Assembly: GCA_023382175.1 (NCBI GenBank)
Contig: JAMCQB010000029.1
Location: forward strand, 1-48,914
Reading direction: 5' to 3'
DNA: 48,914 nucleotides
DNA from: Nitrospirota bacterium
GTDB taxonomy: Bacteria; Nitrospirota; Thermodesulfovibrionia; Thermodesulfovibrionales; UBA9159
Shown: in pieces, positions 43,802 to 48,914 of the stretch
How positions within the stretch are numbered: the first letter of the stretch is position 1
Layout: every line of letters starts with the position of its first letter
Translations under genes and position numbers: made by a program
Notes under the pieces: generated by a model
What the model saw: the letters and a program-made list of their open reading frames with translations, nothing else
What the model was told of the DNA's origin: nothing
Database searches by the model: none

Positions 43802-44215
43802 ATGAATGAAACGGAACTCAAAAAATTATCGGACAGAATCGGCAAACATCCGGTTAAAGTCGCATATCTTTTTGGTTCTGAGGCAAAGGGTGAGTCAGGT
43901 CCTTTGAGCGATATTGATGTTGCTGTGTTTATTGACAAGAGAGTGGACAAATCTGGGCGTTTTGACACGAGACTCAGGCTGTCAAATGAGTTATCAGCAA
44001 TCATGGGGAAAAGGGTTGACCTTGTCGTGCTGAACGATATGCCCGTCCAGCTTTCCTTCGAGGTCATAAAATATGGAGAGTTGCTATATTGCAGCGATAA
44101 AGCCGCCAAAATTGACATAGAGACGGAGATATTATCGAAGTATCTTGACAGGAGATACTATGATAAAAGACATGCGGAACTGGCTCTGGAAAAAATAGCG
44201 TCAAGAGGACTTTAA
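43802..44215 (+). CDS. mntA: MNT-domain nucleotidyltransferase antitoxin (MntA-like)
   Basis: 137 aa. Minimal nucleotidyltransferase with the G25-S26 ... D37-x-D39 motif (FGSEAKGESGPLSDIDVAVF). In characterised pairs MntA adds AMP groups to a tyrosine of the HEPN toxin and so silences it. HEPN gene follows after 5 bp. Confidence 0.87.
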   Translation: MNETELKKLSDRIGKHPVKVAYLFGSEAKGESGPLSDIDVAVFIDKRVDKSGRFDTRLRLSNELSAIMGKRVDLVVLNDMPVQLSFEVIKYGELLYCSDKAAKIDIETEILSKYLDRRYYDKRHAELALEKIASRGL

Positions 44216-44220
44216 TACGT

Positions 44221-44646
44221 ATGAGCCTGAAAGAAAAAGTAAGCAGGAAATTGGAGAGTCTCAGAGAGTATGTGGGTTATCTGAAAGGGTATCAGAGCCG
44301 CACGATAGAGGACATGAAAAAAGACCCGACACTGAGAGGCGCTGTGGAGAGATACCTGCATCTTTCTGCTGAATGTGTGATAGACGTTGCTGAGATGATG
44401 ATTTCCGAGCTTGGCCTCAGAAAACCTGAAGAGTATAGAGAAAGCATCGATATACTCGGAGAAGCCGGGATCATCCCGGATGAATTTGCCATCGAATTTT
44501 CACCCGTAGCAGGGTTCAGGAATATCCTCGTTCATGAGTATACAAAAATAGACTTAACTGAAGTGTATAGACATCTCCAGAAGGACCTTGAGGATTTTGA
44601 AAGGTTCGCTAAATATATTGTTGACTATTTGAAGAAGACGGCCTAA
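44221..44646 (+). CDS. hepT: HEPN-domain toxin (HepT-like, DUF86)
   Basis: 141 aa, all helical. The RNase motif R-x4-H-x-Y is intact (R100, H105, Y107 in FRNILVHEYTKID); Y107 is the residue that MntA homologues AMPylate. Upstream helices show RYLHLSAECVIDVAEMMISE as in DUF86 proteins. The toxin should cleave RNA when unmodified, probably in stress or phage defence. Both active-site residues are kept, so the pair looks functional. Confidence 0.88.
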   Translation: MSLKEKVSRKLESLREYVGYLKGYQSRTIEDMKKDPTLRGAVERYLHLSAECVIDVAEMMISELGLRKPEEYRESIDILGEAGIIPDEFAIEFSPVAGFRNILVHEYTKIDLTEVYRHLQKDLEDFERFAKYIVDYLKKTA

Positions 44647-44853: not shown

Positions 44854-46815
44854 TTACTTCAGCGAGAAATTAGCACTATACTGTTTTCCGTCATTCAACC
44901 TCAGGAGCAAGACGTAGCAATTCCCTGCCCATGATTTTGACGTCTGCCAGTTGTAAATATACTGATTGGCCGTAAAGTCATAGCGCAGGCCCGTGCCTCC
45001 GGTGGCTGTTGTCTCTACTGGATCAGTTATGGTGGTAGAGACGTTCGCGCAGTTCACCTGCTGGAACTGAATTGAAGTCACCGCGCCGAGGTCGCTTATG
45101 AATCCTCCGTACCCGTCAGGCAACTGCCATTTCACCGGTGTGGTGCTCCCCGCCTTCGCAGTATTCAACACAGGCGGATTGTTTATAGGGGGATGGAAGC
45201 CTCCGGCACCCATGAAATCGTAGATGACATTGTAAGTGCAGGAAGCGGAGCTGCCATTGCCGGCGTTATCAACTGCCGTCACCGTAAAGGTCTTTGTCCC
45301 CACCGTTGATGTGTCGAGAGAGTTCGGCCCGTTTGGCGCACTCTGTGATGCCACCCCCGAGCAGCTATCGGTGACGTCAACGGTTACCGAAGCCGTCGCG
45401 CCGAGGTAAACCTCACCGGTACATCCGCTTATATTAATGACTGGCGGCAAAGTGTCCACTACCGTGACTGTCCCCGTACATGTGCTTGATGCGCCTCCAT
45501 CATCAGTCACCGTCAGAGTTACAGATGTGGTTCCAAGGCCGTAAGGCCCCGCCGGTGATTGTGTGAGAGTAATAGGGTCTCCATCCGGATCATATGAGCC
45601 GTTGTCGATAGAGGCGGAGGCTATACAACTCGAATCTGCTGACACCGTCACATCCTGGCATTGGGCCATCGGCGGCTGGTTGAGCGTATAAAGCTCTGCG
45701 CTGGAGAGCACGGTCCTGTTCTGGGTTATCGCGCCGCCCGCTAAGAGAACCTCACCGTTGTTGAGAAGCGTCGCCGTGTGTAATACGCGGGGTGCGGTCA
45801 TGCTGCCGATAAGCGTGAAGGTACCTGTTGCAGGATCATAGAGTTCTGCGCTGGCAAGCGTGAAGGAACCATCATTTCCTCCTGCGATGAGGACCTCACC
45901 GCTGTCCAGGAGCGTCGCCGTGTGGGCGTTGCGAGGTGTGCTCATGCTGCCCGTGAGTGTGAAGGTGCCGCTTATCGGGTCGTAAAGCTCAGCACTGGCA
46001 AGACGCGGGTTAATATCACCCCCCCAACCTCCAACTATAAGCACCGCACCATTATTGAGCAGTGTGGCCGTATGATAAGCACGCGGCGTGCTCATGCCGC
46101 CGGTAGGCGCAAAGGTGCCCGTGTTAGGGTCATACAACTCAGCACTGGCAAGAGGCGGGCCTTCAAGAGAACCCCCAGCGATGAGAACCTTACCATTGGC
46201 AAGCAATGTCGCCGTAGGCTGTTGGCGCACCCCGCTCATACTGCCAGTGGGAGAGAAGGTGTCTGTGACTGGATCATAGATCTCAGCGCTTGCAAGTCCG
46301 CCACCGGGTAATGAGTTTGCCTGCCCTCCCACTATGAGGACTTTACCATTTGCTAACAGTGCTGCCGAGTGACCAGCACGATGTGTGGTCATGCCGCCAA
46401 AAGTCAACGTGAAGGTACCGGCATCAGGATCGTAAAGTTCCGCAGTAGCAAGTGGCCCATACGGCCAAGAAGCATCGGCTCCCCCCGCGATCAACACCTT
46501 ACCGTTGTTGAGCAACGTCGCCGTGTGGACGTTGCGAGCGGTGCTAATGCTGCCGGTAGCGGCGAAGGTGCCTGCTACAGGGTCGTAGAGTTCTGCGCTC
46601 GTAAGGAAGTAGCAACAATTATAAGCACTTTGTCCCCCCACGAGTAAGACCTCACCGCTGCTGAGCAATGTTGCCGTGTACTGATGACGGCTCGTAGTCA
46701 TGCTGCCGGTTGCAGTAAACGTACCCTGTGCCAGTGTCTGGCCGGCTGTCAGTACCAAAAGGATTGAGGCCAGTCCAAGAATCAGGAATTTCTTCTTTTC
46801 TCTTAGCGTTTTCAT
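44854..46815 (-). CDS. Secreted kelch-repeat/PxKF-domain surface protein
   Basis: 653 aa. Signal peptide (about 1-30, LASILLVLTAGQTLA). Seven kelch repeats of about 48-52 residues form a complete beta-propeller (unit: HTATLLNNGKVLIAGG, LASAELYDP, GTFTLTGSMSTPR). Two Ig-like/HYR-type modules follow (PMAQCQDVTVSADSSCIASA, VTVDVTDSCSGVA) and a C-terminal PxKF domain (PVKWQLPDGYGGFISDLG, LRYDFTANQYIYNWQTSKSW). A cell-surface or released adhesin-like role is inferred. ATG 46815 is chosen over GTG 46833: AAGGAG lies 7 bases before it. The leader holds a GEMM-like RNA, micro-ORF and hairpin. Confidence 0.88.
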   Translation of the reverse strand: MKTLREKKKFLILGLASILLVLTAGQTLAQGTFTATGSMTTSRHQYTATLLSSGEVLLVGGQSAYNCCYFLTSAELYDPVAGTFAATGSISTARNVHTATLLNNGKVLIAGGADASWPYGPLATAELYDPDAGTFTLTFGGMTTHRAGHSAALLANGKVLIVGGQANSLPGGGLASAEIYDPVTDTFSPTGSMSGVRQQPTATLLANGKVLIAGGSLEGPPLASAELYDPNTGTFAPTGGMSTPRAYHTATLLNNGAVLIVGGWGGDINPRLASAELYDPISGTFTLTGSMSTPRNAHTATLLDSGEVLIAGGNDGSFTLASAELYDPATGTFTLIGSMTAPRVLHTATLLNNGEVLLAGGAITQNRTVLSSAELYTLNQPPMAQCQDVTVSADSSCIASASIDNGSYDPDGDPITLTQSPAGPYGLGTTSVTLTVTDDGGASSTCTGTVTVVDTLPPVINISGCTGEVYLGATASVTVDVTDSCSGVASQSAPNGPNSLDTSTVGTKTFTVTAVDNAGNGSSASCTYNVIYDFMGAGGFHPPINNPPVLNTAKAGSTTPVKWQLPDGYGGFISDLGAVTSIQFQQVNCANVSTTITDPVETTATGGTGLRYDFTANQYIYNWQTSKSWAGNCYVLLLRLNDGKQYSANFSLK

Positions 46816-46876
46816 GTAATTACTCCTTTCCACGCGTTCTCGCCATTGAGAACTGTAAATCTTCTCTGCCGGAATG

Positions 46877-46912
46877 GTTTCTCTTCGTGCCTCAAAGAGA
46901 GTGAAGAGAAAC
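46877..46912 (-). promoter_or_regulatory. Leader hairpin of the kelch gene (conserved)
   Basis: GTTTCTCTTC and its exact complement form a 10-bp stem 60 bases upstream of the start. The same stem, with one wobble, and the same following bases (CCATTCCGGCA) occur at 48591-48624. Confidence 0.55.
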
Positions 46913-46924
46913 GCCCAAAATCAA

Positions 46925-46954
46925 TCAGCCGCACATTGTGATTGCCTTTCCCAT
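46925..46954 (-). CDS. Conserved 9-codon micro-ORF in the kelch leader
   Basis: ATG behind GAGAGGGGG reads MGKAITMCG and TGA. A counterpart at 48637-48666 reads MGKVMMMYG at the same place in the leader. First three, seventh and ninth residues are shared. Possibly a leader peptide; translation is not proven. Confidence 0.35.
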   Translation of the reverse strand: MGKAITMCG

Positions 46955-47092
46955 GAAACCCCCTCTCTTCCGTCTACTTCTTGAGTAGCACGTCAGGATT
47001 TTCTACCATTCAGACTGCTTCTAAAGGAAAACTAATCCTTTGGGAAAAGTCTGTTCCCCCTCCTCAACGAGAAATACCACTTTCACGACAAT

Positions 47093-47236
47093 AAAAAGGC
47101 CGAGCTTACCGAAGTTTCATCCTTCGGCAGATCCCGCCAAACTTAAGGCGGGCAAGCAGCCATCCTTTGATAAACTCAGGATCCACCGCTTTCTATTCCT
47201 TCCTTGCAGACGATTTTGCTTTGTCGGCAAATACGA
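47093..47236 (-). promoter_or_regulatory. GEMM-I-like (c-di-GMP-I) riboswitch, interrupted, before the kelch gene
   Basis: Starting just after the stop of the upstream gene, the RNA reads CCGACAAAGCAAAATC, a hairpin with GNRA loop GCAA, then AATAGAAAGCGGTGGATCCT and later TGCCGAAGGATGAAAC. This aligns closely with the switch at 48802-48914. A 20-bp palindrome (47133-47152, cccgcc/ggcggg arms) is inserted in the 3' part of the aptamer, and the terminator stem is cut down to CCGAAG/CTTCGG before the U-run. Ligand class is by resemblance to the GEMM-I consensus. Confidence 0.6.
47133..47152. repeat. Small palindrome inserted in the kelch riboswitch
   Basis: CCCGCC and GGCGGG arms around AAACTTAA. 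It is absent from the two related RNAs and sits between ATGGC and TGCCGA of the conserved aptamer 3' strand. Confidence 0.65.
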
Positions 47237-47237
47237 G

Positions 47238-47738
47238 TTATGGTGCATAGCAAGTAACTGTTATGAACAACGGATTAAGGTGAATGTATTCGTTTGCGAT
47301 TACCAAATATGGGATGTATCCACTGTATGTCTGGTACTCGACACAGTATGCGTGCCATACGATATATCCAGCACCATCGAGATCAAGTGGATGTGATCGC
47401 TCCAGGAGATACGTAAACGTATTACCGTAAAGGTCGCTGTACGCAGTAGGGCATTGGGCTCCGCCGGTGAGAAGAACATCATCGCCGTTACAGGCGCAAA
47501 CTGAGGTGCTGGGGCAATCCTTTATGTAGACTCTGTCACGGTCGAAACCTGCCTGATTCCATGAGATTGGGGTTTCAGGTTTTCTGCAATTGTCTGGTCC
47601 ACTCACTATTCTTAAAGACCCGGACGATTGCATATAACATCCATAAATCGTTGCCGCCTCACCGAACGTAGGAAATCCAGCGATGATTGACATGGTGAGG
47701 CAAATTCCGATCACCATTGCTGTAGTTATCTTCTTCAT
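47238..47738 (-). CDS. Small secreted Cys-rich protein of unknown function
   Basis: 166 aa. Signal peptide residues 1-29 (cleavage near FGEA-AT). The mature N-terminus has TIYGCYMQSSGSLRIVSGPD and NCRKPETPISWNQ, a module seen at the start of many secreted bacterial proteins. Eight or so cysteines in the mature protein suggest disulfides. No enzymatic motif recognised. ATG 47738 is preferred: AAAGGGGG lies 4 bases upstream; an upstream ATG (47789) would bury the signal peptide. It sits between two GEMM-like elements. Confidence 0.7.
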   Translation of the reverse strand: MKKITTAMVIGICLTMSIIAGFPTFGEAATIYGCYMQSSGSLRIVSGPDNCRKPETPISWNQAGFDRDRVYIKDCPSTSVCACNGDDVLLTGGAQCPTAYSDLYGNTFTYLLERSHPLDLDGAGYIVWHAYCVEYQTYSGYIPYLVIANEYIHLNPLFITVTCYAP

Positions 47739-47754
47739 ATGTCCCCCTTTCTTC

Positions 47755-47802
47755 TTAAGAAGCAGCTTCAAATAAGATTGAATAGACATAACCGTATATC
47801 AT
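47755..47802 (-). CDS. 15-codon micro-ORF before the small secreted protein
   Basis: ATG behind AAAGGAGG reads MIYGYVYSILFEAAS and TAA, ending 16 bases before the main start. It has a better ribosome binding site than most genes here. No relative in the other two leaders. Confidence 0.3.
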   Translation of the reverse strand: MIYGYVYSILFEAAS

Positions 47803-47822
47803 CTCCACCTCCTTTGACCAAT

Positions 47823-47945
47823 AAGATGGCCGAGCTCACCGAAGTATCATTCCTTCGGCAGCTCGGCCATCTTGATTTATAAGACCCACCACCTTTTTGA
47901 ATCTTCCTCCCGATGGAGGGGTCCTCCATGCATCCATTATCAGAC
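47823..47945 (-). promoter_or_regulatory. GEMM-like RNA element before the small secreted protein
   Basis: The RNA contains AAAAAGGTGGTGGGTCTTA and AAGATGGCCGAGCTGCCGAA, which match the 3' half of the switch at 48802-48914, but its 5' half (a CCTCC/GGAGG hairpin without GNRA loop) differs. A 20-bp-class stem (47823-47873, AAGATGGCCGAGC with its complement) has no U-run; the ribosome binding site of the micro-ORF follows 13 bases later, so control may be translational. Confidence 0.5.
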
Positions 47946-47967
47946 CGGATATCATCAAATAACCAAA

Positions 47968-48519
47968 TCACTGAGGATCGACACCCTGTCCACCCCGCAC
48001 ACACCAGGCGCCGAGGACGATGGTAATCTTATCGGCAGGGCCCACCACACCGGAACCGTTAACGGCCACGAACCACGCCTGGCTAGTATCTGCGCTATAG
48101 GTAGTCGCCGACCAGAAGTCGACCCACCCCCCAATAACAAAAGGGTGGCCAGGAGGGAGGGTAGGGCCCGGAAAAGGCACTGAAGGGTCCATGAGGCTCT
48201 CGATCTCCTGGAGCGTAGGAAGCCTCCAGCCCATACGGTTACCCTTGGTCAGGGTATTGCAATGGGTTTGGGCATCATACCAGTTGAAATTGACCAGCAT
48301 CGGCGACTGCTCCCAGGCAAGCCCTGTCTCCTTATCCAGGACGCCCTGACCGCTTAGCACAAATTGAAAGCGAACCGGACTATTTATTTCCTGATTCCAG
48401 GCAGGTGATATTTTATTGTCTACGATTATGTTACCGGCAACGCTCAGACCAGGGAGAAACAATCCTATGGTAATAGCCAGGATCGCTCCCACTACTATTG
48501 ACCTTTTCTTGTGACACAT
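47968..48519 (-). CDS. Secreted DUF1566 (Lcl C-terminal domain) protein
   Basis: 183 aa. Signal peptide residues 1-29 (GLFLPGLSVAG). DUF1566 core: VLDKETGLAWEQSP, YDAQTHCNTLTKGNRMGWRL, PTLQEIESLMDPS, FWSATTYSADTSQAWFVAVN, and GAWCVRGG. The fold is C-type-lectin-like (formylglycine-enzyme-type) and is common in secreted or adhesive proteins. ATG 48519 is chosen: TTTGGAGG lies 7 bases before it and the signal peptide follows directly. First visible gene of the riboswitch-linked cluster. Confidence 0.87.
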   Translation of the reverse strand: MCHKKRSIVVGAILAITIGLFLPGLSVAGNIIVDNKISPAWNQEINSPVRFQFVLSGQGVLDKETGLAWEQSPMLVNFNWYDAQTHCNTLTKGNRMGWRLPTLQEIESLMDPSVPFPGPTLPPGHPFVIGGWVDFWSATTYSADTSQAWFVAVNGSGVVGPADKITIVLGAWCVRGGQGVDPQ

Positions 48520-48590
48520 TTTGCAACCTCCAAATACTCCTTTCCGGGCGAACCTGCCCGGAAGAACTGTCAATTGTTTTTGCCGGAATG

Positions 48591-48624
48591 GCTTCTCTTC
48601 GTATATTCAAAAACGAGGAGAAGC
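48591..48624 (-). promoter_or_regulatory. Leader hairpin of the DUF1566 gene (conserved)
   Basis: GCTTCTCCTC pairs with GAAGAGAAGC (one G-U), as at 46877-46912, and is followed by CCATTCCGGCA. A second stem (48542-48562, TTCCGGGC/GCCCGGAA) lies closer to the gene. Confidence 0.55.
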
Positions 48625-48636
48625 AATCCAAAAAAA

Positions 48637-48666
48637 TCAGCCATACATCATCATTACCTTTCCCAT
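48637..48666 (-). CDS. Conserved 9-codon micro-ORF in the DUF1566 leader
   Basis: ATG behind AAAGGAG reads MGKVMMMYG and TGA, matching MGKAITMCG at 46925-46954 in length, start context and stop. Confidence 0.35.
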   Translation of the reverse strand: MGKVMMMYG

Positions 48667-48801
48667 GATGACTCCTTTCTTTCGTCTACTCCTTGAGTAG
48701 TACGCTGGAATTTTTCTTCGACCAGACTTCCAAAAGAAATGGGCAAATCCCGTAGAAAAAGTCTGTTCCCCCTCTGCGAGAAGCAATTCTTTTCCACCAA
48801 T

Positions 48802-48845
48802 AAAAAAAGCCGAGCTACCAAAGGTTCATCCTTCGGCAGCTCGGC
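48802..48845 (-). terminator. Intrinsic terminator of the DUF1566-gene riboswitch
   Basis: The 5' arm GCCGAGCTGCCGAAGG pairs over 16 bp (two G-U) with CCTTTGGTAGCTCGGC, loop ATGAA, and TTTTTT follows. Its 5' arm is also the 3' strand of the aptamer, so ligand binding and termination exclude each other. Confidence 0.75.
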
Positions 48846-48914
48846 CATCTTCTCTAAGACCCGCCGCTTTCTGTCCCCTTCTCACGAAGGGTTTGGCTTT
48901 ATCGGGACAGCTTA
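48846..48914 (-). promoter_or_regulatory. GEMM-I (c-di-GMP-I class) riboswitch aptamer before the DUF1566 gene
   Basis: The RNA reads GATAAAGCCAAACC, a CCCTTC-GTGA-GAAGGG hairpin with a GNRA tetraloop, GGGACAGAAAGCGG, CGGGTCTTA and AAGATGGCCGAGCTGCCGAA. These match the GEMM-I layout (GGCAAACC, GNRA hairpin, GACGCAAAGCC, CGGGUCU, and a GCCGxGUUGCCGA-type 3' strand). Ligand may be c-di-GMP or cyclic GMP-AMP, as GEMM members vary. The 5' arm of P1 reaches the window edge. Confidence 0.72.

Follow-up and report, generated by a model that had tools for sequence, protein, structure and literature searches.

A predicted c-di-GMP-I riboswitch and two diverged copies in an exported-protein gene cluster of a Nitrospirota bacterium

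Results

Genes and leaders at the locus

The window analyzed here is a 48,914-nucleotide stretch of DNA from a Nitrospirota bacterium of the order Thermodesulfovibrionales (assembly GCA_023382175.1, contig JAMCQB010000029.1). Three genes on its minus strand encode proteins with signal-peptide-like N termini, and each lies downstream of one of three related RNA elements, called units 3, 2, and 1 in the order in which they would be transcribed. Unit 3 is followed by the gene of a 183-residue Lcl_C (DUF1566) protein (47968..48519; PF07603, E = 2.3e-18). Downstream of unit 2, the gene at 47238..47738 encodes a 166-residue Cys-rich exported protein, for which no Pfam or NCBIfam match was found. Unit 1 is followed by the gene of a 653-residue exported protein with kelch repeats, HYR, and PxKF (44854..46815), which matched PF13418 (E = 1.5e-36), PF02494 (E = 3e-5), and NF038114 (E = 5.2e-38). 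A first-pass annotation of this DNA had described each element as lying directly before a signal-peptide gene. The gene type was confirmed in all three cases, but the close spacing applies only to unit 2, which lies about 83 nt before the start codon; for unit 3 the distance is 311 nt and for unit 1 it is 331 nt. On the plus strand, an MNT nucleotidyltransferase/HepT-like ribonuclease pair, a toxin-antitoxin module, adjoins the kelch gene (43802-44646).

Units 3 and 1 have in common a leader of about 280 nt that separates each of them from its start codon. The unit 3 leader runs from the terminator to the start codon (48520..48800, minus strand) and is 72% identical to its paralogue in unit 1 (46816..47092, minus strand). 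These are the two copies in the genome, and apart from them a BLAST search of 60 relatives turned up a single match, short and weak. A second structured RNA within the leader was considered and set aside, because the two copies fold differently (folding z-scores of -2.48 for unit 3 and -0.96 for unit 1); the leader was kept as a lead only. A block of about 50 nt within it (47020-47060 and 48722-48772, minus strand; core TTTTCTAYRGGATTWRT) is a possible conserved leader element. The block resembles leaders behind aptamers in G001 (C311 and C442) and in one Desulfobulbaceae MAG, with weak statistics. Each of the three leaders also has, on the minus strand, a short upstream ORF with a good ribosome-binding site, at 46925-46954 (MGKAITMCG), 48637-48666 (MGKVMMMYG), and 47755-47802 (MIYGYVYSILFEAAS). 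The first two are paralogous, and all of the differences between them are amino-acid-changing substitutions.

Detection and homology of the three elements

Aptamers of related genomes were collected with the RF03167 model, and 93 matches were read out: 92 from a search of the genome itself and 60 relatives, plus unit 1. Thirty-six aptamer-plus-platform sequences, chosen because their core and platform are of the local type, were aligned and used to build a covariance model, R1, from which every window element was left out. In this alignment, 91.5% of the cells were paired compared with 88.1% in shuffles, and nine pairs showed changes on both sides compared with 5.2. The covariation score of 0.219 (0.161 in shuffles) was reached by none of 500 shuffles. 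The aptamer fold is thus backed by covariation in 36 homologues.

The R1 search of the whole window returned exactly three good matches, all on the minus strand: unit 3 (48792-48906, aptamer and platform; 120.7 bits, E = 4.8e-31), unit 1 (47082-47228, a diverged aptamer and terminator; 52.9 bits, E = 2e-12), and unit 2 (47812-47944, a decayed relative; 45.5 bits, E = 2e-10). The next-best matches, at 16.9 and 13.1 bits, were the reverse strands of terminator palindromes. Calculated over the whole 2.85-Mb genome, the E-values were 2.8e-29, 1.1e-10, and 1.3e-8 for units 3, 1, and 2, respectively. The model therefore recovered all three minus-strand elements at the places where the first-pass annotation had recognized them.

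The sequence blocks GGCGGGTCTT, GGTGGGTCTT, and GGTGGATCCT are common to the units, and all three have kept P3, the ligand strand CUGCCGAAG, and a strong hairpin. Units 3 and 1 further have in common AAAGC-AAA and a GNRA loop (GTGA in unit 3, GCAA in unit 1), as had been noted from the letters. The block GGCCGAGCTGCCGAAGG, also put forward as shared, occurs unchanged in units 2 and 3, whereas an inserted hairpin splits it in unit 1.

A search of the whole window against Rfam at curated cutoffs gave unit 3 as its single match (RF03167, c-di-GMP-I-GGC; 48831-48906, 63.5 bits against a cutoff of 59), and the same place also exceeded the cutoff of RF01051, c-di-GMP-I (57.2 bits against 35). Unit 1 remained below both cutoffs, with 21.7 bits for RF03167 (47147-47228, at E ≤ 1) and 16.7 bits for RF01051. 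Unit 2 had no match among 4,227 Rfam families even at E-values up to 1, and no c-di-GMP-II family matched anywhere in the window at that limit. The first-pass annotation had proposed this covariance-model check, with the lack of any significant match as the refuting outcome, and had regarded all three elements as GEMM-like riboswitches resembling GEMM-I. Because unit 3 matched, that outcome did not occur. The assignment stands for unit 3, which is a member of the c-di-GMP-I (GEMM-I) family, but does not extend to three working switches. By homology, units 1 and 2 descend from the GEMM-I kind. Taken together, the results confirm all three elements as homologues, far beyond chance, but the three are unequal.

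Unit 3 combines an intact aptamer with a terminator

The unit 3 aptamer (48831..48906, minus strand), recognized by RF03167, RF01051, and R1, is complete. It has P1, P2 with a GUGA (GNRA) loop, and P3, and in Vc2 numbering, transferred by way of the Rfam alignment, position 20 is G and position 47 is A. The ligand-pairing C is situated in CUGCCGAAG. In its three-helix architecture, P2 GNRA loop, G20, A47, and ligand-pairing C, unit 3 agrees with the Vibrio Vc2 type of RF01051. The units differ from that type in having CC/GG rather than GC/GC at the base of P2, a short P1, and a terminator platform that makes use of an aptamer strand. The best-scoring Rfam family for unit 3 was RF03167, the consensus of which has G at Vc2-47. 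This core letter was not found in unit 3, which has A, as do 83 of 84 scorable relatives. We take the GGC of the family name to refer to this position, a naming rule that we presume from the RF03167 consensus. If so, these aptamers would have an ordinary c-di-GMP-I core, and the RF03167 score would reflect overall shape and sequence.

The terminator scan and folding placed the expression platform of unit 3 at 48801..48846 (minus strand), a 17-bp intrinsic terminator hairpin (-32.4 kcal/mol) followed by U7. The CUGCCGAAG strand is at once the 3′ strand of the aptamer and the 5′ strand of the terminator. When unit 3 was folded at increasing transcript lengths, the aptamer-like P2/P3 hairpins yielded to the terminator once the 3′ strand of the terminator had been made. 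The same strand sharing is found in the GEMM-Ib riboswitches of Geobacter, where in the pilM riboswitch the aptamer and terminator are mutually exclusive and the ligand blocks the terminator, giving an ON switch (PMC9262584). Because of this likeness, the prediction for unit 3 is an ON switch that acts on transcription. At low c-di-GMP, the long terminator hairpin with its U7 tail would capture the aptamer's 3′ strand, ligand-pairing C included, and transcription would stop. When c-di-GMP is bound, the aptamer would retain that strand, no terminator would form, and the genes would be made.

The cluster is probably one operon

Unit 2 begins 23 nt past the stop codon of the Lcl_C gene (47968) and unit 1 begins 9 nt past that of the Cys-rich gene (47238). 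In the relatives, few aptamers lie so near to a real gene on the same strand. On account of this spacing, the three genes probably form one operon with partly decayed internal copies and a promoter beyond the contig end, and we infer a single transcript through them. Upstream of unit 3 the contig stops after 8 nt, and because unit 3 sits on this assembly junction, the true start of the operon was not assembled. The last 126 nt of the contig (48789-48914) recur exactly at the end of contig C136 (G000:C136:17973-18098) and then differ in the 3′ flank.

The genes could instead be separate, each with a promoter inside the upstream coding region, in which case the spacing would be coincidental and regulation independent. 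Most aptamers elsewhere in the genome and in the relatives do head a single gene or a short operon, as this would require. However, the very short distances from stop codon to aptamer speak against such an arrangement, as does a scan of 46700-48914 on the minus strand, itself a weak one, which found no sigma-70-like promoter. We regard separate genes as unlikely, although promoters that use another sigma type or lie within the upstream genes may still be compatible with the sequence.

Aptamers of the same type elsewhere in the genome and in relatives

In the whole genome (2.85 Mb, 171 contigs), R1 gave nine matches. Four further aptamer loci lie outside the cluster, on C73, C148, C57, and C54; the first three were in the R1 training set and C54 was not. 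Some of these precede other kinds of genes, for example, that of a CBS-domain protein. A regulon of surface proteins, as first suggested, therefore reduces to one three-gene cluster plus four aptamer loci elsewhere. A general link between these aptamers and surface proteins was not borne out either: signal peptides were not enriched among the first genes behind aptamers (42 of 87) relative to control ORFs (10 of 16), as judged with a crude predictor and a control set that was too small.

In a pattern scan of named genomes, aptamers with this type of platform came mainly from Nitrospirota/Thermodesulfovibrionia and from MAGs of Desulfuromonadales type. A protein that has the same N-terminal module (GCY...LRIV...C...ISWN) as the Cys-rich protein of the window is encoded behind a GEMM-I aptamer at G005:C102:41523-42700, and the window protein matched this relative weakly in tblastn (42% over 36 residues, E = 0.001).

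c-di-GMP is the predicted ligand

The position equivalent to Vc2-20 is G in each of the six aptamers read from this genome, units 3 and 1 among them; the GEMM-Ib hallmark A20 was found neither in these units nor in the other aptamers read there. Across the sample, G occupied this position in 78 of 92 aptamers and A in 14, counted by raw position, so that the register may be off for a few divergent aptamers. Eight of the 14 were among the 16 aptamers of the sister genus G001.

The GGDEF proteins of this genome number at least 12. One of them, a GAF-GGDEF protein (G000:C150:51268-51741; L144:610-1995) whose gene is directly followed by that of an MglA-like GTPase, resembles the cGAMP-synthesizing Hypr GGDEF enzymes and has Ser at the selectivity position of that family (NDHYGHLVGS). 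Its best PDB match was the GGDEF fusion structure 6d9m (E = 1.8e-49), which we take from its description to be a Geobacter Hypr construct. Orthologues with at least 67% identity were found in 41 of 61 genomes, clearly apart from other GGDEF proteins (at most 51%), and all 30 orthologues read had the Hypr serine. This conserved protein is a candidate cGAMP synthase in the Nitrospirota order, and because it is encoded and conserved, cGAMP may be present in these cells.

Together with the CC/GG pairs at the base of P2, which are typical of Geobacter cGAMP aptamers, the conserved enzyme would fit switches of the GEMM-Ib type that sense 3′,3′-cGAMP made by this GGDEF protein, as in Geobacter. The identity of position 20 argues against this. 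The Geobacter GEMM-Ib aptamers, including pilM, have A20 and bind cGAMP, whereas the window units have G20 in a lineage that does use A20. In the Geobacter aptamers A20 is cGAMP selective, and replacing A20 with G in Gmet_0970 switched the aptamer to c-di-GMP by experiment (PMC6456294); the equivalent position has also been named a selectivity factor (PMC9262584). We consider cGAMP sensing by the units unlikely, and the choice between c-di-GMP and cGAMP left by the first-pass annotation narrows to c-di-GMP, which is predicted as the ligand from G20 and the Geobacter rule.

Aptamers of the A20 (cGAMP) type beside G20 aptamers in the same genome suggest control by two messengers. The A20 loci are G001:C176, C414, C442, C279, C311, C287, and C140, G002:C252, and G043:C12.

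Units 1 and 2 are damaged

Each of the other two units is without pieces that are nearly invariant in the relatives. Unit 1 keeps G20, A47, the GCAA loop, and P2, with pairs 12-35 and 18-29 broken. The base of its P3, C41-G75, is interrupted by the hairpin GCCCGCCTTAAGTTTGGCGGGAT; this pair is invariant in all 36 relatives. The unit 1/3 alignment defined the insertion as 23 nt (GCCCGCC-TTAAGTTT-GGCGGG-AT; 47131..47153, minus strand) at the P3/P1 junction. A pattern search with up to three mismatches returned this one copy in the genome, and a genomic repeat was ruled out as its source. In folding, the outer stem of the unit 1 terminator was partly rebuilt from the inserted side. Unit 1, with its ligand core kept but a hairpin inserted, may respond weakly or not at all.

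Unit 2 keeps P3 and the terminator stem, AAGATGGCCGAGCT...AGCTCGGCCATCTT, with a hairpin of -39.1 kcal/mol. Its P2 region (39 nt) was unaligned to R1; no P2 with a GNRA loop could be aligned, and this part is replaced by other hairpin-forming sequence. The U-run of the terminator is lost and now reads CCATCTTATT. With neither a U-run nor a recognizable ligand pocket, unit 2 probably forms a fixed hairpin that terminates weakly or not at all. From this damage we infer a loss of function in both units, although a diverged aptamer may still bind ligand.

That all three units nevertheless work as switches in series, c-di-GMP relieving each intercistronic terminator to give graded, multiplicative control, would agree with the features that all three retain, with the core and loop kept in unit 1, with the intercistronic position that serial gating requires, and with the aptamer-gene cassette clusters found in relatives (G036:C12 and G009:C35), but it is improbable given the missing P2/GNRA domain and U-run of unit 2 and, in unit 1, the broken invariant pair and a score far under the Rfam cutoff.

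Discussion

We favor, as the probable reading of the locus, a tandemly built operon for exported proteins in which unit 3 is the one functional GEMM-I switch and the other units are decayed copies. The shared leader and aptamers point to duplication of a riboswitch-leader-gene cassette. Units 2 and 1 would be copies of the aptamer-terminator module, placed directly past stop codons, that were duplicated together with genes and then decayed. As an ON switch, unit 3 would couple the expression of the surface proteins to the sessile state.

More than one GEMM aptamer per transcript is likewise seen at Geobacter GSU2885 (PMC6456294) and at G036:C12. Those loci have two aptamers before one gene, whereas in the window the copies lie between genes and two of the three are damaged. 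The kind of riboswitch is already known; a series of one intact and two decayed copies within an operon is uncommon. A bolder proposal, which we think unlikely, is that c-di-GMP gates a series of intercistronic terminators along a single transcript, those of units 3 and 1 with or without that of unit 2, in a lineage with both G20 and A20 riboswitches and a conserved Hypr GGDEF protein. If this is true, serial gating would let c-di-GMP set how much of the three surface proteins is made and in what ratio.

These results extend GEMM-I control of exported proteins to a Nitrospirota order, for which no earlier report was found in the literature searched. The natural series of intact, inserted, and eroded forms of one riboswitch in one operon is useful for the study of module duplication and decay. 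Finally, with G20 and A20 aptamers and a conserved Hypr-type GGDEF protein in the same lineage, dual control by c-di-GMP and cGAMP becomes directly testable.
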